From the IMG/VR virus record IMGVR_UViG_3300003323_000259, positions 1-48,876 of that record: 48,876 nt of DNA; one strand, 5' to 3'. Each line of letters opens with the position of its first letter. The stretch's first letter is position 1. Below are positions 2,974 to 32,485 of this stretch, one piece after another. A program made the translations under genes and the position numbers. A model generated the notes under the pieces. The model worked only from the letters and a program-made list of their open reading frames with translations. It made no database searches and was not told the DNA's origin. Source of the stretch: a virus.

Positions 2974-4101
2974 ATGGCAAACACACGCCGTAGACAAATC
3001 GCAGTCTACATCGGGCGCTTCCAGCCCTTCCACCGAGGACACGAATACGTCCTCAATCACTGCCTTGAACACTACGACCATACAGTGGTCTTGATTGGCA
3101 GTGCATTCAAAGCACGCGACATCGAAAATCCATTCACCTACAATCAACGCCGTCAAGTAATTATGAGATGGTTGGATGAGGAATGGGCGGCAAATCCAGA
3201 AATCTCCATCCATCCTCTTCAAGACCATCCATATAATGATGCCGAATGGATTAAGTCGGTGCAAGGAATTGTTTCCTTCACAGTCTCCGGTATCGAAAAT
3301 GCCGAGATCACGCTTGTCGGCTGTGATCGCGATTCCACTACATGGTATCTCAAGGCATTCCCCCAGTGGGAGCGAGACTTCATCGAACCTTATCGGAACA
3401 TTCCTGGACTATCTGCCACGCAGGTGCGAAAGCATTATTTCGGCCGTCAGGACGGGCATAAGTATCAACCGATCCATAAATGGGCTGGCGTTCTGGAAGT
3501 AACTGCTGACTTCCTTACCGAGTTCGAGAAGACGGATACTTTTAAGTCCCTGTGCTGGCAATATCAGTTCCTACAGGACTACCATGAAAAATGGGGAACC
3601 GGTCCATTCGTAACTGCCGATATCTGTGTCGTACAATCAGGTCATATCCTGGTAGTCGAACGTGGTCCAGAGGAATACGGTGCCGGCCTGATCGCTCTAC
3701 CTGGCGGATTTGTAAAACCGCATCAGCGTATTAAGGACGCTGCAGTGGATGAGTGCATTGAGGAAACCGGTATTCGTCTTACCGAAGGTAAGCGCAGCGA
3801 GGAGATCACCCGCCATATGCTGTTAGGTTCGATCCGCGACTATGAACAGTTCGATCATCCGAAGCGCTCGTTGAGGGGCCGTATCTTCACCACGTGTTAT
3901 CTGGTGCGCCTTGACGACACAAAACCGCTACCTAAGGTCAGCGGACAACTCGTGCCCTTAGGCGAAGAAGGAGGTGGAGTTCGCGTTGAAACTGCTAATG
4001 CCAAGTGGATGCCCTTCGCCGAGGCTTTAGATAATCCAAGCATTTGGTTCGAAGATCATCACTCGATGGCCGAAACGATGATTTCGTTGATAAGGGACTG
4101 A
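2974..4101 (+). CDS. nadM: bifunctional NMN adenylyltransferase / Nudix hydrolase
   Basis: The 375-residue protein has two domains. Residues 8-165 are a nucleotidyltransferase of the NadM type, with GRFQPFHRGH at 14-23 (HxGH-like ATP site) and LSATQVR at 146-152 (second signature). This domain joins NMN and ATP to give NAD. Residues about 205-375 are a Nudix domain; in related fusions it hydrolyses ADP-ribose or similar. The Nudix box at 244-267 keeps the ExxEE core (ECIEETG), but the usual early Glu is Gln and the Arg before Glu is Asp. The start follows AAAGGAGC at 2960-2967. It heads a three-gene NAD cassette with the DUF1937 gene and nadV. Confidence 0.88.
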   Translation: MANTRRRQIAVYIGRFQPFHRGHEYVLNHCLEHYDHTVVLIGSAFKARDIENPFTYNQRRQVIMRWLDEEWAANPEISIHPLQDHPYNDAEWIKSVQGIVSFTVSGIENAEITLVGCDRDSTTWYLKAFPQWERDFIEPYRNIPGLSATQVRKHYFGRQDGHKYQPIHKWAGVLEVTADFLTEFEKTDTFKSLCWQYQFLQDYHEKWGTGPFVTADICVVQSGHILVVERGPEEYGAGLIALPGGFVKPHQRIKDAAVDECIEETGIRLTEGKRSEEITRHMLLGSIRDYEQFDHPKRSLRGRIFTTCYLVRLDDTKPLPKVSGQLVPLGEEGGGVRVETANAKWMPFAEALDNPSIWFEDHHSMAETMISLIRD

Positions 4102-4103
4102 TC

Positions 4104-4547
4104 ATGCATCCAAGCTGGGAACGATACTGTAAGTGGTTGGCTGAGGAATATCCTGCAATTGCCGCAACCAAGCCACAAGATGAGCTGATCTATCTGGCAG
4201 CTCCCTACTCCAAAGTGGACGATAAAGAGTTGCTGATGCAACAGATCATGGCTTTCTCGGGGACCTACATGCTGCACTGTCCCGGACACCACATCGTCAG
4301 TCCACTGTTCAATCACTTCTCATTGGACAAAGTGCCCGGGCTCGGTAGCGACTATGCCTTTTGGGGAGCATACTCTGTCAATCTGCTGAGACGGTGTGAC
4401 CACCTGATGGTCATCTGTTTGCCGGGTTGGCAAAACTCCACTGGAGTGGAAGACGAAGTTCGCCGGGCAACAGAAGCCGGTATCCCAATCGAATACGTAA
4501 GTGCCAACTTGTTCCAAGTAATGGCCAACCTCTCAATCAAAAACTAA
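4104..4547 (+). CDS. DUF1937 nucleoside deoxyribosyltransferase-like protein
   Basis: The 147-residue protein starts at ATG 4104, two bases after the adenylyltransferase stop; a longer in-frame version from 4044 would overlap that gene and is less likely. It shows the DUF1937 pattern: IYLAAPYS near residue 29, HHIVSPLFNH near 71, a FWGAYSVNLLRRCD helix, and LPGWQNSTGVEDEV near 110. The family is placed with nucleoside 2-deoxyribosyltransferases (Rossmann-like fold cleaving N-glycosidic bonds), but most members are untested. The Glu in GVEDE may be catalytic by analogy. Its place between two NAD biosynthesis genes suggests it acts on a nicotinamide or ADP-ribose related compound (inference). 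Confidence 0.72.
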   Translation: MHPSWERYCKWLAEEYPAIAATKPQDELIYLAAPYSKVDDKELLMQQIMAFSGTYMLHCPGHHIVSPLFNHFSLDKVPGLGSDYAFWGAYSVNLLRRCDHLMVICLPGWQNSTGVEDEVRRATEAGIPIEYVSANLFQVMANLSIKN

Positions 4548-4557
4548 GGAGCTTACC

Positions 4558-6123
4558 ATGCAAACCCAACTGAACCTAATCGCTCAACTGTTCGCCCCTA
4601 ACGGTTTTGATGTCCAGTACATCCCGAAACCACCCCTGAAGATCGCGCTGATCCTGCGCATGGACAGTTACAAGTTCGGCCACCCGTTTGCCTACCGCAA
4701 AGGTATCGAGGCCATGACGTGCTATGGCACGGCGCGCGTGTCTGCCGATATCGATATCGTGTACACTGGCAAGCAGCAGCTGCTGCAATCCACGTTTCAG
4801 GACCCGATCACTGCCACAGATGTGGACGCAGCACGTGAGTTTGCGAAGAAACACTTCGGTGTCGAACTGTTCAGCTACGATGACTGGATGGAGGTCGTCA
4901 ACAAACACGGCGGCTATCCTCCACTGGTCATTCGCTCCATCGACGAAGGCTCGGTGGTGCCAGGTGGCACAGCGCTGTACAACGTAACCTCGTTCGATCC
5001 GAAGCTGAACTGGATGGCCGCAGGATTCGAGACCGTCGTGTTGCGCGGCAACTGGTATCCGACTACCATCGCTACCGACGACTTCGATATCCGCGAGTCG
5101 ATCATCGAGTACTACAAGCTGACTAACGCCGACATGAACATGCTGCCGTTTGCGCTGCACGATTTCGGCGGTCGTGGCGTAACGTGCTCGGAGCAAGCAC
5201 AGATCGGCGGTGCCGCTCACCTGCTGAACTTCATGGGCTCCGACACCATCGAGGGCATCGTCGCTGCCAACCACTACTATGACGAGGACATGGCGGCATT
5301 CTCTGTCTTCGCTACCGAGCACAGCGTCGAATGCTCGTTCGGTCTGGACGAGGCTGGTGAATATGAGTACGTTGTTCAGCAAATCAAGACCGCCCACAAG
5401 ATGGGACTGCCTATCGCTTCCATCGTCATCGACGGCAAGGACGCGATGCGTTGCGCCAAAGTCTTCTGCCGACCGGAGATCGTTGAACTGGTGAAGAGTG
5501 GTCCGACCAAGATCGTGTTGCGCCCGGACAGTGGTGACATGATGGTCATTGTTCCGGCCATTCTGGAATTGCTGGCTGAAGCCTACGGCGTAACCTATAC
5601 AAGCTGTGGCAAATATCGCATGTTGAATAACGTAGGTGTGATCCAAGGCGACGGCGTTGATCACCAAGCTGTTCGCATGCTGCTGGGCAAGCTAATGGTA
5701 TTGTGCTGGGCCGCATCGGTCATGGTCTTCGGTTCGGGCGGTGCTCTGCTGCAAAAGGTCAACCGCGACAAGTACAAGTTCGGGCAGAAGGCCAGCGCTA
5801 TTCTGGTACGCGTACCTAAGTGCAACTGCGAACGTGGTTGCATGAGCGACGAGATGTGCCCGTACGATCATGCGCCGACAGACCTGAAGTGGATTGGCAT
5901 CGCAAAAGATCCAGTGACCGATCAGGGTAAAAAGTCGTTGGAGGGCGTCATCACTGCGATTCGCAACACGGAGACCGGTGAGTATCGCAATCACGACCTG
6001 CTGCAACCGATTCCCGAAGGCTGGGTCGACGCAATGAAGTTGCGCTGGGATACCGGCGTGTTCTACAACAAGGTTCGTTTGGCCGAAATGCGTGCTCGCG
6101 TTAACGCCGCATTGGGCTTGTAA
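4558..6123 (+). CDS. nadV: nicotinamide phosphoribosyltransferase
   Basis: The 521-residue enzyme joins nicotinamide and PRPP to NMN, the first step of the two-step salvage to NAD. Family signatures are clear: LHDFGGRGV at 200-208 (Asp202), ATEHS with His255 (the phosphorylated His in human NAMPT is 247), LRPDSGD at 321-327 (Arg322, Asp324), VIQGDGVD at 361-368, and GGALLQKVNRDKYKFGQK at 394-411. Length is near the family norm. An odd insert at residues 418-440 has four Cys (422, 424, 428, 434) and may bind metal. AAGGAG is at 4546-4551. Codon use is GC-richer and more CTG-heavy than in neighbours, which suggests strong expression or separate origin. Confidence 0.92.
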   Translation: MQTQLNLIAQLFAPNGFDVQYIPKPPLKIALILRMDSYKFGHPFAYRKGIEAMTCYGTARVSADIDIVYTGKQQLLQSTFQDPITATDVDAAREFAKKHFGVELFSYDDWMEVVNKHGGYPPLVIRSIDEGSVVPGGTALYNVTSFDPKLNWMAAGFETVVLRGNWYPTTIATDDFDIRESIIEYYKLTNADMNMLPFALHDFGGRGVTCSEQAQIGGAAHLLNFMGSDTIEGIVAANHYYDEDMAAFSVFATEHSVECSFGLDEAGEYEYVVQQIKTAHKMGLPIASIVIDGKDAMRCAKVFCRPEIVELVKSGPTKIVLRPDSGDMMVIVPAILELLAEAYGVTYTSCGKYRMLNNVGVIQGDGVDHQAVRMLLGKLMVLCWAASVMVFGSGGALLQKVNRDKYKFGQKASAILVRVPKCNCERGCMSDEMCPYDHAPTDLKWIGIAKDPVTDQGKKSLEGVITAIRNTETGEYRNHDLLQPIPEGWVDAMKLRWDTGVFYNKVRLAEMRARVNAALGL

Positions 6124-6130
6124 CCCATAA

Positions 6131-6199
6131 GTCTATCACACTGGCGAGTTCTACAGCGAAACTACATTGGCTGAAGTGCGTGAACGCGCTGCCAAGTAA
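6131..6199 (+). pseudogene. remnant of a second nadV 3-prime end
   Basis: Just after the nadV stop, an open stretch without a start encodes TGEFYSETTLAEVRERAAK and a stop at 6197-6199. It aligns with the true nadV C-terminus, TGVFYNKVRLAEMRARV. The DNA is diverged, so this is not a fresh duplication. It is probably the tail of an older or different nadV copy left by recombination. Confidence 0.6.
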
Positions 6200-6208
6200 T
6201 TGAAGTCC

Positions 6209-6243
6209 GGCCTACGTCTGTCAAAAGGCGTAGGCCTTTTCTA
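6209..6243 (+). terminator. rho-independent terminator after NAD cassette
   Basis: GGCCTACG (6209-6216) pairs with CGTAGGCC (6229-6236) and is followed directly by TTTT. It closes the nadM-DUF1937-nadV transcription unit. Confidence 0.75.
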
Positions 6244-8033: not shown

Positions 8034-8195
8034 ATGAAGATCATCGATTATGAAATCGTGCGACATACGTATGCACTAAACTTGACTATTGAAGTTGACA
8101 AGTTTATCAAAGACGGGTGGGTACCACAAGGCGGAGTTACCTTCTGTTCGCGTGATAGCGAATATGCACAGGCAATGGTGAAGTATGAATCTTGA
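8034..8195 (+). CDS. DUF1737-like small protein
   Basis: The 53-residue protein starts at ATG 8034 after GAGAGGG. The pattern YEIVRHTY, then a helix VDKFIKDGWVPQGGVTF, then YAQAMVKYES matches DUF1737, in which an LxxxVNxxIxxGWxPxGG core is followed by QAMV. Function of the family is not known. Its end overlaps the ligase start by 11 bases. Confidence 0.6.
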   Translation: MKIIDYEIVRHTYALNLTIEVDKFIKDGWVPQGGVTFCSRDSEYAQAMVKYES

Positions 8196-10071
8196 CGAAA
8201 TGAAGGCCTTATACAAGAAGGCCAACAAGGCGTACAACAATGGACTACCTAGCGGATTAACCGACGCGCAGTTCGATAATCTGGAAAAGAAAATTCGCAA
8301 GCTCGATCCGCAATGGAAAGAACTGCGCAAAACTGGTGCGCCTGTCATCAATAAAAAGACAGAGGTTGAACTGGAAGAGTTCATGCCTTCTTTAAGCAAG
8401 GCCTATCCAGAGACCATCGGTAAATGGCTCGCCAAACAAAAGGCCAAGCTCTTACTGTTCATGCACAAGCTTGACGGTTCTTCACTGCAAGTCAAGTATA
8501 TCAACGGAAAGCCAACCAAGGTCGTAACTCGAGGCGACGGCACCTTAGGTGGCGACATTTCGTTTCTGATCCCTCACCTAAACCTACCTAAGTTAGTGTC
8601 TACCGGAACCAACATTACGCTTCGCTGTGAAGCAGTAATGAAGACCAAGACATTTGAAAAGAAATGGAGTAAGGCAGCCAAGGGCGAAAAGGACGGATTC
8701 GATAACGCCCGAAACATGGTGGCTGGCCTGCTTAATCGAATGAAGCCGCATCCAGGCTTGAAAGACATCGATATTGTGGTCCTAGGAATGTACCATGAGG
8801 AGATTCTTAAAGGTCTCACCTGGTGTCGTGACCAAGGTCTTCAAGTGGTTGAGCATGCACTTACTTCCGTTGATGGAAATTTTGAGGAACTGCTTTCTGT
8901 TCAGCGTAAGAGATCAGAATATGAGATTGACGGATTAGTCCTGATAGCTCCTCGTCAAGTGTTTGAGTACGAAAACGCACAGCGCCCTAAATTCTCCATC
9001 GCGTTTAAGGTCAATGGCGATGAAGATGCAGCCGAAACTGTGGTCGACGAGGTGATTTGGCAGCATTCGCGTACAGGTCGTTTGACTCCAAAGATCAAGG
9101 TCAAGCCTGTGAAGATGAAAGGTGTAACTGTAACCTACGCGACAGCTCACAATGCTAAGTGGATGCAGGAACGTGGAATTGGTGTCGGTGCAGTAGTGCG
9201 CCTCGTCCGTTCAGGGGACGTTATCCCTAAAATCGTCGGCGTAGTCAAAAAGGCCAAGAAACCTGCTGTGCCTGACTGTAAGTATGTACAAGAAGGTGTA
9301 CATTTTATGTCGGCCGAACGCCACCAGGATTCTGACGTGCGTGAGATTCACCATTTCTTTGCTACACTTGGTATTGAGCATATTGCGCAGAAGACGGTGG
9401 CTAAGCTTTACACCGCTGGATTCCCTGACGTGCTGGCCTATCTGATTTCATATGAACAGCGCATGACAGGTTTCGCAGAAGCCGGTATGGGTAAAGCCAT
9501 GACGCAAAAAATCTATGTTGAATTCAGCCGTGTTCTGATAGATGAAGGCGTTACTCTGCTAAAGTTGATGGACGCCTCCAACTGCTTCGAGTCGTTTGGT
9601 GAGCGTAAACTGGAAATGATTGAGCAACACTTCCTAGGTAAAGGTGATTCAGATCCTTTGAAGGGCTTCGTGAAGCTGTCGTTTGAAAATCTTCAGAACG
9701 AACGTAACTGGGGCGCCGTAGAGATGATCAAAGGCATGGGTCCTGCCTCTGCTCGCCAATTCTTCGAAGGCGTTCAACGTTTCAAGTTGTGGTTCGCCCC
9801 TATCCTGAAGCTGAAGCTCCTGAAGATCAATCCGCCGAAAGTGATAAAGAAAAAGAAACCGACCAATGGGAAATTAAATGGAGAGCGAGTGTCATTCACA
9901 GGATATCGCAATCCTGACCACGAAGCCGCCGTCGAAATTCTTGGCGCTGAGGTCGTTAAATACGGAGCAAAGACAACTATTTTGCTGTACAAGAAGGGTG
10001 GCAAGGCTAGCACCAAAGTCGAGGCAGCTCGCGCCAAAGGAATTCGTGTCTGCACAATCGAGGAGATTTAA
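8185..10071 (+). CDS. ligA: NAD-dependent DNA ligase
   Basis: The 628-residue enzyme seals nicks in duplex DNA using NAD, releasing AMP-DNA intermediates and NMN. Visible signatures: MPSLSKAY at 67-74, the adenylated lysine in HKLDGSS (Lys95), TRGDGTLGGD at 115-124, RCEAVM (Glu149), FKVN near 275, then an OB-type part with GAVVRLVRSGDVIPKI. A helix-hairpin-helix region follows (GMGPASARQFF), and a C-terminal BRCT domain from about residue 562 (NGERVSFTGYR). The family's four-Cys zinc finger is not preserved; only one Cys remains near residue 363. The N-terminal Ia domain is shortened. It uses the cofactor that the nadM-nadV cassette supplies. Confidence 0.9.
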   Translation: MNLDEMKALYKKANKAYNNGLPSGLTDAQFDNLEKKIRKLDPQWKELRKTGAPVINKKTEVELEEFMPSLSKAYPETIGKWLAKQKAKLLLFMHKLDGSSLQVKYINGKPTKVVTRGDGTLGGDISFLIPHLNLPKLVSTGTNITLRCEAVMKTKTFEKKWSKAAKGEKDGFDNARNMVAGLLNRMKPHPGLKDIDIVVLGMYHEEILKGLTWCRDQGLQVVEHALTSVDGNFEELLSVQRKRSEYEIDGLVLIAPRQVFEYENAQRPKFSIAFKVNGDEDAAETVVDEVIWQHSRTGRLTPKIKVKPVKMKGVTVTYATAHNAKWMQERGIGVGAVVRLVRSGDVIPKIVGVVKKAKKPAVPDCKYVQEGVHFMSAERHQDSDVREIHHFFATLGIEHIAQKTVAKLYTAGFPDVLAYLISYEQRMTGFAEAGMGKAMTQKIYVEFSRVLIDEGVTLLKLMDASNCFESFGERKLEMIEQHFLGKGDSDPLKGFVKLSFENLQNERNWGAVEMIKGMGPASARQFFEGVQRFKLWFAPILKLKLLKINPPKVIKKKKPTNGKLNGERVSFTGYRNPDHEAAVEILGAEVVKYGAKTTILLYKKGGKASTKVEAARAKGIRVCTIEEI

Positions 10072-11284: not shown

Positions 11285-12166
11285 ATGAAAGCATTCACCG
11301 AAGAGAACTTTAAACTGTTCATTGCCTCTGAACCTGACTACGATAAAGATGACCATTTCGCAACTTCCCAGGAACGCGCTCATCATGTCTTGGAGAAATT
11401 CAATGCTTGGCGAGCAGAACCGCACCATGCTGGTACTCTAGGTACAGGCAATCACTTCATTGAAATATGCTTGGATGAGAATCAGGATGTTTGGATTATG
11501 CTTCATTCAGGCTCTCGCGGTATCGGCAATGCTCTTGGCCAGCATTTTATCGAACTGGCAAAGAAAGAGATGGAGCGTTGGCATATCCAGCTACCTGATT
11601 CGGACTTGGCCTATCTTCCAGAAGGAAGCTCCTACTACACGGACTATATGATGGCCGTTTCCTGGGCACAGGACTTTGCGCAGAACAATCGGATGCTCAT
11701 GATGGGAGCAGTAAAGGATGCCTTTGAGAAGTTCATGGGACGCCCTATCGAGAGCCAAGAGCACGCAGTAAACTGTCATCACAACTACGTTCAGAAAGAA
11801 AACCATTTTGAACAGAATGTTTGGGTGACCCGCAAAGGTGCAGTAAGTGCTAGGCTCGGCGAGCTTGGAGTTATACCTGGTTCGATGGGTGCCAAATCGT
11901 TTATCGTGCGTGGTAAAGGAAATCCTGAATCCTTCTGTTCCTGTTCCCACGGTGCCGGACGTAAAATGTCGCGTGCTGAAGCAAAGCGTCGGTTTACTGT
12001 GGAAGATCATGTCAAGGCAACCGAAGGAGTCGAATGCAGAAAAGATGCATCCGTTATCGATGAGACTCCCGCGGCTTACAAGAGCATCGATGAAGTTATG
12101 GCAGCACAGTCCGATTTGGTAGAGGTTGTGCACACCTTAAAACAAATCCTCTGTGTAAAGGGATGA
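11285..12166 (+). CDS. rtcB: RtcB-like RNA ligase, N-terminally short
   Basis: The 293-residue protein carries most RtcB signatures: GTGNHFIE (His57), LHSGSRGIG (His74), VNCHHNYV (His165/166), and SHGAGRKMSR with the His222 that takes GMP. RtcB joins 2',3'-cyclic phosphate or 3'-phosphate RNA ends to 5'-hydroxyl ends. Typical enzymes have about 370-480 residues; here the N-terminal segment with the metal-binding Asp and Cys (GxGxDxxCG) is absent. No upstream frame supplies it. It may be inactive, act with a host RtcB, or use a different metal arrangement. GGAG precedes ATG 11285. In phages RtcB-type enzymes are thought to repair tRNA cut by host defences. Confidence 0.85.
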   Translation: MKAFTEENFKLFIASEPDYDKDDHFATSQERAHHVLEKFNAWRAEPHHAGTLGTGNHFIEICLDENQDVWIMLHSGSRGIGNALGQHFIELAKKEMERWHIQLPDSDLAYLPEGSSYYTDYMMAVSWAQDFAQNNRMLMMGAVKDAFEKFMGRPIESQEHAVNCHHNYVQKENHFEQNVWVTRKGAVSARLGELGVIPGSMGAKSFIVRGKGNPESFCSCSHGAGRKMSRAEAKRRFTVEDHVKATEGVECRKDASVIDETPAAYKSIDEVMAAQSDLVEVVHTLKQILCVKG

Positions 12167-17668: not shown

Positions 17669-19333
17669 ATGATTATTACCGCATCCCGAGCAACAGATTT
17701 TTTAGCGATTATGTACGCAATGTTTGCCGAGCGCTATCAGAATCCTACTGGTAAGGCTGACGAAGAAATGGTTTTAGAGGTCTCTAAATTGGCTAAGCAG
17801 GTGCTTCCAGTTTGGGGTAAGTCCATTCCTGCCTTGCATGATATTCTGGTGGACATCCTAAAAGGTCGTTCCAAAGAGGAAGCTTTCCAAAAGCTTGGCT
17901 TAATACTCAAGCAGCTAGTACCTCAAGGTAAAGGCGACTACGAAGTCCCTGCTCAGGAGATTGAGTTGCTCCACGCTATTGGTTCCTACTTTAGGACTGG
18001 TAGTGAAAACATGGCAAAGAAATTGGTCAAGTTTGCAAGCCTCTCTAAGTCACCATTTGTTGTTCAACGCCTGGCCCCTAAAGTAGGCGATCAACAGTCT
18101 ACTAAAGCCAAATTGGAGAAAATGGTTCGACAACTGGTAGGTCGCAAAGACACTGCGATGACTCCAGAGGAAGCTCAAAAGGTTCGCGAACTTAATCCAG
18201 AGACCTACCGTGAGTACCTGGCGCTACGTCGTGATTTTAACCAAAGCTGGAAAGATGCGCTGGCTTCCTATATTCGCAAGTCCGGTCACCACATGGTCCC
18301 ATTCAAGGAAGTGAACGACTACCTGCGATTGAATGGTATCGATCACATGCTGCCTGTTGGGTTCACCGGTATGGTTGACGATCTCGGTCGCTTCTACACC
18401 AACAAAGGCAAGCTGATTGAAGGTGTTCCATCGGCAGTTAATTTCCCTTCGGTAGAGATGAACCCGAATTTTGGTCGACCTGATGGTGGTGATTGGGTCT
18501 TCATGGCCAAGCGACCAGACGGTAGCCCAGGGCCTTATTTCTACACCTCCGATTTCAAAAAAGATCAATCGATGGCCAAATTCAAAAAGGTTGAAGCCTT
18601 GATGAAGAAGGTAGATTCGATTCGCAAACGATGGTTAGGATTAGCTCAGAAGTTTGATCCGGAAAACCCGATTACTGTGGCCGCTACCATCCTGGAAATT
18701 CTGTATGAATTCTCAGCACGGGTAGGTTCAGTAGGTAATGAGGCACGAGGTTCGGCCACATTTGGTGTTTCAACGCTTCTGGTTAAGCACGCTACCATCA
18801 CTCCAAACGGCTCCATTACTCTGCGCTATAAGGGCAAAGACGGAGTACCTACTACACATAAAATCACACAATCGACCCCTCAGGGTAAGATGTTGATTCA
18901 CAACTTGAATGAACTGTTGGCCAACAAAGATCCGAAGGACCGAATCTTTACTGTGCAGAAGGGCAATCGACAAATTCCAGTTACTGCAACCCAGGTCAAT
19001 CAACTGTTCCGTCAATGCGGTGCCCCAGAAGAAGTTTCTGTCCACAAGTTACGCACGGTAAAAGGTAGCGGTTTATTCGCGCAGGCTATGGAGAAAGCTT
19101 TTGAAAAAGGCAAACCGAAAAATGAAGCACAGGCTAAAGCATTGTTCACCAAATTAGCTGAACAGGTGGGTAAAGCCTTGAACCACATGCGTACTGTGGC
19201 AGGTGGTGGAAGCAAAGTCACTGGAGCAACGGCTCTTCAGAGTTATGTGGATCCTTCGCTTCAAATCCAATACTGGACCACCGTGGGATTCCGCTTACCC
19301 AAGTCGCTTGAGAAATTCGCTGGGGTCGAGTGA
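17669..19333 (+). CDS. type IB DNA topoisomerase
   Basis: The 554-residue protein relaxes supercoils through a 3'-phosphotyrosine bond. The catalytic C-terminal half is clear: Arg351 in SARVG followed by GNEARGSATFGVSTL, YKGKDG with Lys388/390, HKLRTVKGS with Arg462, a helical stretch ending NHMRTV, and Tyr526 in SYVDPSL as nucleophile. The N-terminal 200 residues are helical and unfamiliar. It opens MIITASRATDFLA, a loose relative of the RL tag. GGAGCA precedes the start. Type IB enzymes are typical of eukaryotes, poxviruses and some bacteria, and are less usual in phages. It leads region 2; its stop overlaps the next start. Confidence 0.82.
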   Translation: MIITASRATDFLAIMYAMFAERYQNPTGKADEEMVLEVSKLAKQVLPVWGKSIPALHDILVDILKGRSKEEAFQKLGLILKQLVPQGKGDYEVPAQEIELLHAIGSYFRTGSENMAKKLVKFASLSKSPFVVQRLAPKVGDQQSTKAKLEKMVRQLVGRKDTAMTPEEAQKVRELNPETYREYLALRRDFNQSWKDALASYIRKSGHHMVPFKEVNDYLRLNGIDHMLPVGFTGMVDDLGRFYTNKGKLIEGVPSAVNFPSVEMNPNFGRPDGGDWVFMAKRPDGSPGPYFYTSDFKKDQSMAKFKKVEALMKKVDSIRKRWLGLAQKFDPENPITVAATILEILYEFSARVGSVGNEARGSATFGVSTLLVKHATITPNGSITLRYKGKDGVPTTHKITQSTPQGKMLIHNLNELLANKDPKDRIFTVQKGNRQIPVTATQVNQLFRQCGAPEEVSVHKLRTVKGSGLFAQAMEKAFEKGKPKNEAQAKALFTKLAEQVGKALNHMRTVAGGGSKVTGATALQSYVDPSLQIQYWTTVGFRLPKSLEKFAGVE

Positions 19334-19961: not shown

Positions 19962-20432
19962 ATGAAGATTGAAGCACTACACAGATTACGCGCAGGACGT
20001 GAAACAGGTACTGGGGCTGGAGCACTTTTCTACTGCACAGAAACAGAAAACTTCCTGATCCTTCTCCGCTCCGATGATGGTGACGACGGCAATTGCTGGT
20101 GTTGCTTAGGTGGCGGCGTTGACGACGACGATCCAGACATCCGGCACACAGTAAGGCGCGAGGCTTTCGAGGAAGCTGGACTCGATATGGATCATCCTTA
20201 CGATTTGCATCTAGTAGGTGTCAAACATTATCCTGATGGATTCAAGTTTACCAATTTCCTGGCCTTGGTAGACGAGGAGTTCTATCCTGTGCTTAATGAG
20301 GAGCACAAAGGTTACCAGTGGTGCAAGTACAAGGACTTCCCGGAGAACATGCACCAAGGAATGATGGAAGTATTCCATACACCTGAAGGCCAACGAGTTT
20401 TAAAGCAACACACAACCGCACTTGATTATTGA
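19962..20432 (+). CDS. RL-tagged Nudix hydrolase
   Basis: The 156-residue protein opens with the tag IEALHRLRA (residues 3-11). The Nudix domain starts with ALFYCTETENFLILLRS, and the box is at 50-74 with REAFEEAGL intact at 66-74; the earlier part of the box is replaced by a run of Asp (GGGVDDDDPD). Nudix enzymes hydrolyse nucleoside diphosphates linked to another group (NDP-sugars, dNTPs, ADP-ribose, RNA caps); substrate is not clear. GAGGAACC lies before ATG 19962. If the tag directs packaging, this enzyme would enter the host with the DNA. Confidence 0.72.
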   Translation: MKIEALHRLRAGRETGTGAGALFYCTETENFLILLRSDDGDDGNCWCCLGGGVDDDDPDIRHTVRREAFEEAGLDMDHPYDLHLVGVKHYPDGFKFTNFLALVDEEFYPVLNEEHKGYQWCKYKDFPENMHQGMMEVFHTPEGQRVLKQHTTALDY

Positions 20433-31687: not shown

Positions 31688-32485
31688 ATGTATAAGCCCT
31701 TACAGGTTGCTCTATCAGGATCAGGTTTCAAGTTTCCTGCCCACGTAGGGGCTTTGATGGCCATCCGCGACAAAGGTTACACCATCAATAAAATCGCAGG
31801 GACTTCTGGAGGTTCCATAGTTGCAGCCTTATTGGCTTCCGGTATGTCTGTGGAGGAAATGAAAGACCTGGCCATGACTACCGACTGGTCGTTTACTATG
31901 TCCTGGTCTCCTTTGTCGACTTTTAAGTTCAGCTACTGTAATGGTAGAGCCTTACATCGATGGCTTCAAATCGCAACTGAATGTAAGACCTTCGAGGACT
32001 GCGATATCGATTTGGTAATAGAGGCCTCTGATATCCTGCACGAAAGTGGCATTGAATTCAGTTACCTCACCACACCTGAAATGAGTGTGGCTGACGCCGT
32101 ACGAGCATCGACCTCCATCCCGTTTGTGTACGAACCTTTTATGTATGAAGGGCGTCCGCTTATGGACGGAGGCATGGCGAATAATATTGCCATAGACCGT
32201 CTTGATTTAGATATGCCTCGTATCGGAATTCAATTGGTTTCAAACGCGGCAAGCGGTGCCAATCTTCTGAGTCGTGTGGGTCATATGATTAATCTGATGC
32301 TCAGCGCTCAGGAATCCACCCACGTGGAATTGGGTAAGCTTAGAGGTGCAACTATGGCCTTCATAGAGACCAGTTACGCCAATTCATTAGATCCTAATCT
32401 GTCTCCGTTGGTACGCAGTCGTTTGATAGCCGACGGATACCGTAAGACTATAGAAACATTGACCCAGATGGAGAACTCAAAATGA
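31688..32485 (+). CDS. patatin-like phospholipase
   Basis: The 265-residue enzyme has the family layout: an oxyanion loop SGSGFKFPAHVG near residue 10, nucleophile Ser40 in GTSGGS, and catalytic Asp160 in MDGGMANN. These act as a Ser-Asp dyad that cleaves fatty acyl chains from phospholipids. ATG 31688 follows TAGGAGG. It has no RL tag and no signal peptide, so it acts in the cytoplasm or comes to the membrane late; a part in lysis or membrane remodelling is possible. Its end overlaps the next gene by ATGA. Confidence 0.82.
   Translation: MYKPLQVALSGSGFKFPAHVGALMAIRDKGYTINKIAGTSGGSIVAALLASGMSVEEMKDLAMTTDWSFTMSWSPLSTFKFSYCNGRALHRWLQIATECKTFEDCDIDLVIEASDILHESGIEFSYLTTPEMSVADAVRASTSIPFVYEPFMYEGRPLMDGGMANNIAIDRLDLDMPRIGIQLVSNAASGANLLSRVGHMINLMLSAQESTHVELGKLRGATMAFIETSYANSLDPNLSPLVRSRLIADGYRKTIETLTQMENSK

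Follow-up and report, generated by a model that had tools for sequence, protein, structure and literature searches.

A probable NARP2-type NAD salvage operon with a linked DUF1937 gene in a relative of the jumbo phages BcepSauron and Motura

Three neighbouring genes of a jumbo phage like BcepSauron and Motura, encoding NadM, a DUF1937 protein and NadV, most probably form, as judged from sequence, an operon for NAD salvage of the NARP2 type, with DUF1937 as a linked accessory. We recognize NARP2 by a phage nicotinamide phosphoribosyltransferase (NAMPT) with its catalytic residues and an NMN adenylyltransferase (NMNAT) in the same operon, and both are found here. This composition, proposed in the preliminary description, is borne out by catalytic residues that are intact in the two enzymes and by the absence of the clamp of the NAMPT homologue Namat. 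If the enzymes are active, as we infer, NadV would make NMN from nicotinamide and PRPP, and NadM, through its adenylyltransferase half, would form NAD from this NMN and ATP. NAD that a host NADase had split into nicotinamide and ADP-ribose would be rebuilt in this way, and NAD would also be kept up for phage enzymes, for example the NAD-dependent DNA ligase encoded downstream. NARP2 was reportedly described by Osterman et al. 2024, and phage KVP40 is said to possess a phage NAD salvage pathway. Reviews characterise NARP2 only by its use of alternative metabolites.

The window, by which we mean the whole analysed stretch of 48,876 bases, is the IMG/VR virus contig IMGVR_UViG_3300003323_000259. 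Its major head protein is 72% identical to its counterparts in the Burkholderia phages BcepSauron and BcepSaruman and 62% to that of Achromobacter phage Motura. On this similarity the window represents part of a jumbo phage akin to BcepSauron and Motura, with a suggested size of 220-265 kb. Apart from short patches of nadV, no close DNA relatives of the window were present in the phage collection. The three genes lie on the + strand at the coordinates given in the preliminary description, each supported by family searches: nadM at 2974-4101 (375 aa), the DUF1937 gene at 4104-4547 (147 aa) and nadV at 4558-6123 (521 aa), with intergenic gaps of 2 and 10 bases. Shine-Dalgarno sequences reading AAGGAG precede nadM (2961-2966, +) and nadV (4546-4551, +). 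The operon had also been said to end in its own terminator, and an intrinsic terminator is indeed found at 6209-6236 (+), where GGCCTACG...CGTAGGCC forms a stem of 11 pairs followed by the T-rich tail TTTTCTATTT, 85 bases past the NadV stop. The region has 7 terminator-like matches where 4.5 are expected, so this assignment depends on the quality and position of the hairpin. No convincing promoter was detected (2 sites, with 4.8 expected by chance), and no Rfam family matched near the operon.

Elsewhere in the window, many otherwise different proteins encoded near the portal and capsid genes share an N-terminal motif like MIxINAAQRLKA (at 19962, 20563, 27306, 29888, 32482, 35339, 42409, 42629 and 42882), possibly a signal for capsid targeting or a propeptide. 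The structural region also contains a patatin-like phospholipase gene (31688-32482) that matches PADLOC phospholipase effector models (E 7e-10). A eukaryotic-type IB family topoisomerase (17669-19333; PF01028, 9e-25) and an RtcB-like RNA ligase of 293 aa (11285-12166), matched only over the C-terminal part of its family (profile 138-426), are encoded as well.

The identity of the salvage pair is secure, and the pair is an ordinary one for large phages, representing a known pathway. NadM joins an NMN adenylyltransferase and a Nudix domain in one protein, with Pfam matches to CTP_transf_like (1e-8) and NUDIX (2e-11), a match to phrog_395 (1e-57), a match to the NCBIfam bifunctional NMNAT/Nudix model that is strong (2e-76) yet under the curated cut-off, and PDB relatives 2qjo (4e-51) and 2qjt. 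Its nucleotide-binding motif GRFQPFHRGH (3013-3042, +) includes G14, R15, H20 and H23, which are invariant across all aligned phage NadM sequences covering these positions, and the HIGH-type NMNAT motifs are conserved; NadM keeps GRFxPxHxGH as well as the SxTxxR region. NadV matches NAPRTase (5e-28) and NAMPT_N (7e-15) in Pfam, phrog_448 (5e-108), NCBIfam PRK09198 (6e-114; 381 bits, under the curated cut-off of 405) and the Xcc NAMPT structure 7yqo (3e-82). Every NAMPT catalytic position examined is present (Y38, F203, R206, D229, H255, R322, D324, D365, R403, K411 and K450), with roles that we take to be those assigned in established NAMPT structures. The matches of NadM and NadV extend over nearly the full length, and their E-values, 1e-57 to 1e-114, exclude chance for both. 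The identities of NadM and NadV covary between cassettes (r 0.94), and in the survey of Iyer et al. 2022 NadV accompanied NadM in every phage with NadM; the two were proposed to counter NADase effectors or NAD depletion (PMC9503650). The counter-defence function that we infer here is extrapolated from other phages, by which analogy defeat of Thoeris-type or NADase defence is plausible.

DUF1937 is a linked third component of the NAD cassette and is worth follow-up. Viral contigs were scanned for DUF1937, with neither NadM nor NadV required, using a profile biased to NAD-linked members (four of them, plus one unlinked), and 14 loci were returned. Six of these loci, at 50% identity or more, followed NadM directly or lay close to it, and NadV was no more than 4 kb away (five distinct loci, as L173 and L174 are nearly identical), and the 8 more distant loci had neither NadM nor NadV within the retrieved flanks. 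Because this profile favours linked members, the search was repeated with the independent phrog_355 model on 50 contigs carrying NadM or NadV, where 10 of 13 DUF1937 genes were no more than 1.5 kb from NadM or NadV and 2.0 were expected (p about 3e-9 under uniform placement, ignoring kinship between contigs). Among contigs of at least 90 kb the figures were five of seven linked against 0.22 expected (p about 5e-7, kinship ignored). In the control family PF15891, deoxyribosyltransferases of related fold, 3 of 18 genes were linked, with 1.3 expected (p 0.12). A pattern scan of cellular genomes confirmed no DUF1937, and scans of viral contigs with single DUF1937 and NadM sequences found nothing, whereas alignment-based scans succeeded.

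The distribution of these genes leaves a substantial possibility that DUF1937 is a general nucleotide-metabolism gene that entered one lineage of NAD cassettes and has been carried along, as would fit with the distant DUF1937 genes that lie away from NadM and NadV and with the confinement of NadM-adjacent carriers to one 17-member NadM clade (support 0.92). However, the linkage is maintained in phages with different capsid genes and recurs in two arrangements, one with DUF1937 behind NadM and the other with it behind NadV, and no significant linkage is seen in the PF15891 control, all of which argue for more than passive carriage. Among the NadM-adjacent carriers only L175 has a capsid gene like that of the window, so the NadM-DUF1937-NadV unit apparently passes from one phage lineage to another. 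DUF1937 co-diverges only weakly with NadM (r 0.15) and with NadV (r 0.38). The order NadM-DUF1937-NadV recurs, together with an eroded Nudix box and a NAMPT-type clamp, in the IMG/VR contigs 3300012212_000040 (L006/L170) and 3300049001_000044 (L171), which differ from the window in an N-terminal extension on DUF1937 and in NadM and NadV identities of 54-57%.

Other genes also occupy the space between NadM and NadV in phage cassettes. By eye, macro-domain-like genes recur there (L155, L134, L137, L105, L064, L085 and others; 12 proteins in one cluster), and in L155 a deoxyribosyltransferase-like gene comes after one of them. A conserved block found between the two genes in L093, L100, L102, L110, L120, L007 and L018 consists, by eye, of adenylosuccinate-synthetase-like and VWA-like genes. 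At L002:6848-13426, NadM and NadV are followed by PnuC-, NadR- and TonB-dependent-receptor-like genes, again by eye, which suggests that this phage takes up nicotinamide riboside as well.

The NAD genes could also serve metabolism alone, the operon supplying replication, ligation and host metabolism with more NAD and not being selected for counter-defence, an account that we regard as rather unlikely. It draws on the NAD-dependent DNA ligase gene at 8185-10071, 2 kb downstream of the operon, on the likewise adjoining ligase gene of BcepSauron, and on the frequent occurrence of NadV and NadM in large phages (PMC9503650). Against it, Motura has the ligase with no annotated NadV or NadM beside it, indicating that ligase function does not need them, and the fast evolution of DUF1937 in one gene pair suggests conflict, as far as DUF1937 is concerned. 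BcepSauron, the closest isolate by capsid, has the same order of NadM, a small gene and NadV, without DUF1937 in the retrieved stretch; its NadM and NadV are only 29% and 33% identical to those of the window despite the 72% capsid identity. Such divergence in NAD genes that adjoin the ligase in BcepSauron is consistent with exchange.

The DUF1937 protein matches PF09152 (7e-8; 33.4 bits, passing the gathering score of 23), as do all 16 aligned homologues, and has a deoxyribosyltransferase/N-glycosidase/TIR-like fold in its AF2 model (pLDDT 86). In Foldseek, significant similarity was restricted to the DUF1937 protein 1T1J; sub-threshold matches with TM-scores of about 0.4-0.5 comprised 6qai, a deoxyribosyltransferase, MilB (a CMP N-glycosidase), DNPH1, a SPARTA TIR domain and Thoeris EcThsB2, and the match to PF05014 was not significant. 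The fold class and a conserved Glu appear to be shared with 1T1J, DNPH1, MilB/BcmB, nucleoside deoxyribosyltransferases and TIR NADases, at TM-scores of about 0.5, and the Tyr position seems to be as in deoxy-specific enzymes. E118 occurs in every complete homologue, and E118 and Y30 are at predicted active-site positions, corresponding by alignment to motif positions of BcmB and DNPH1; the alignment of E118 with the BcmB-motif Glu is a weak sequence match, and no clear equivalent was seen for the Asp that serves DNPH1 as general acid. In DNPH1 and nucleoside deoxyribosyltransferases a Tyr beside the Glu accompanies 2'-deoxy specificity; MilB has Phe there and ribose substrates (PMC10603095, PMC11204291). 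Members of the window clade have Tyr, whereas homologues located after NadV have Phe, which predicts cleavage or binding of a 2'-deoxynucleotide by the window protein, outside the salvage pathway itself, and of ribonucleotides by the post-NadV homologues.

In the one pair compared, L170 and L171, DUF1937 has a dN of 0.445, while the values for NadM and NadV are 0.111 and 0.074; dS is similar among the three and near saturation. Fast protein evolution, the NDT/TIR-class fold, the conserved E118 and Y30 and the linkage to the NAD genes would all fit a DUF1937 protein that destroys or binds the nucleotide signal of a host NADase system or its deoxynucleotide precursor, and one NADase defence, Kongming, is triggered by the deoxynucleotide dITP (PMC12774641). 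We consider this role unlikely, as we do the two-pronged cassette that it would imply, with the trigger blocked by DUF1937 and the damage repaired by NadV and NadM: the substrate of DUF1937 is a prediction, the Asp expected from DNPH1 lacks a clear counterpart, and the rate difference comes from a single gene pair with near-saturated dS.

Set against NARP2 and the phage NadV-NadM systems, the salvage operon shares a close NAMPT and NMNAT pair on one strand, a large phage and intact catalytic residues, and differs in the DUF1937 gene between the enzymes, an eroded Nudix box, an apparently replaced nadV allele and a four-cysteine insertion. The Nudix box, GGFVKPHQRIKDAAVDECIEETGI (3703-3774, +), departs from the canonical Gx5Ex7REUxEExGU in that the signature Glu is replaced by Gln and the signature Arg, present in 123 of 127 aligned phage NadM sequences, by Asp; the metal-binding glutamates E260, E263 and E264 are retained. 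The Nudix half of the window protein is therefore probably weakened, with reduced ADP-ribose hydrolysis predicted from these substitutions, and recycling of ADP-ribose through it is doubtful. The box is also altered in L170, L171, L175, L010 and L093. On the NadM tree, the altered boxes of the window, L006, L171, L175 and L010 form one clade (support 0.996); L093 falls outside it next to a canonical sequence, and two or more separate origins of the change are therefore probable. A strict tie between erosion of the box and DUF1937 was rejected, since the box is eroded in L010 and L093, where DUF1937 was not found, and canonical in L172 and L173, where DUF1937 is present. PADLOC models gave a weak match on the Nudix half only, with none for DUF1937 or NadV.

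NadV itself carries an insertion of about 22 residues with C422, C424, C428 and C434 (5809-5880, +) that is unique to the window among 128 aligned phage NadV sequences and missing from the other 127. The insertion is a possible metal site and could disturb NadV; its placement was left uninterpreted because the AlphaFold model of the core is poor (active-site segments below pLDDT 50, Foldseek rmsd about 20 A). The GC3 of nadV, 0.71, is the highest in the window (gene mean 0.478, sd 0.065, z = 3.6). Immediately downstream, at 6131-6199 (+) and in a frame different from that of nadV, lies VYHTGEFYSETTLAEVRERAAK*, which is what is left of the C-terminal end of another NadV. This remnant scores 39.0 bits (E 8e-14) against a NadV C-terminal profile built without the window sequence, compared with 22 bits for nadV's own tail and 5.8 bits for the best of 10,809 other tiles of the window. 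The better fit to the family profile (39 versus 22 bits) makes a tandem duplicate of nadV's own tail the less likely origin, and, most simply, an incoming nadV would have displaced a resident copy, of which the last 22 codons were left behind.

NARP1 employs another phage-encoded enzyme, Namat, which is homologous to NAMPT and uses ADP-ribose pyrophosphate (PMC12774641). F392, Y396 and A362 of SpbL1 Namat align, at the TRD/NRD motif, with A396, K400 and G366 of the window NadV, which reads QGDG with G366 standing where Namat has A362. The SCH adenine-clamp positions, as aligned, are thus in the NAMPT state and the Namat clamp residues are absent. A PF13793 search for the PRPP-synthetase-like Adps gene, positive in 14 of 14 control genomes, gave no match in the 48.9 kb record, itself a fragment. 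Despite the homology of Namat to NAMPT (PMC12774641), a NARP1-like system in which NadV is a Namat using ADP-ribose pyrophosphate is therefore highly improbable; it was rejected on the clamp residues, in a comparison covering the SCH positions, and on the lack of a detected Adps in the window, and the NMNAT encoded in the operon also argues against it.

Rebuilding NAD is a general and recent response of phages to NADase immunity. Within the NARP2-type operon favoured here, erosion of the Nudix box points to a change in, or loss of, ADP-ribose hydrolysis in part of the cassette lineage, and the nadV remnant is a direct sign of gene exchange between phages, as expected for genes engaged in an arms race. 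The persistence of DUF1937 beside the two salvage genes in phages whose capsids are unrelated makes it a promising candidate for an accessory counter-defence factor of a kind not yet described.
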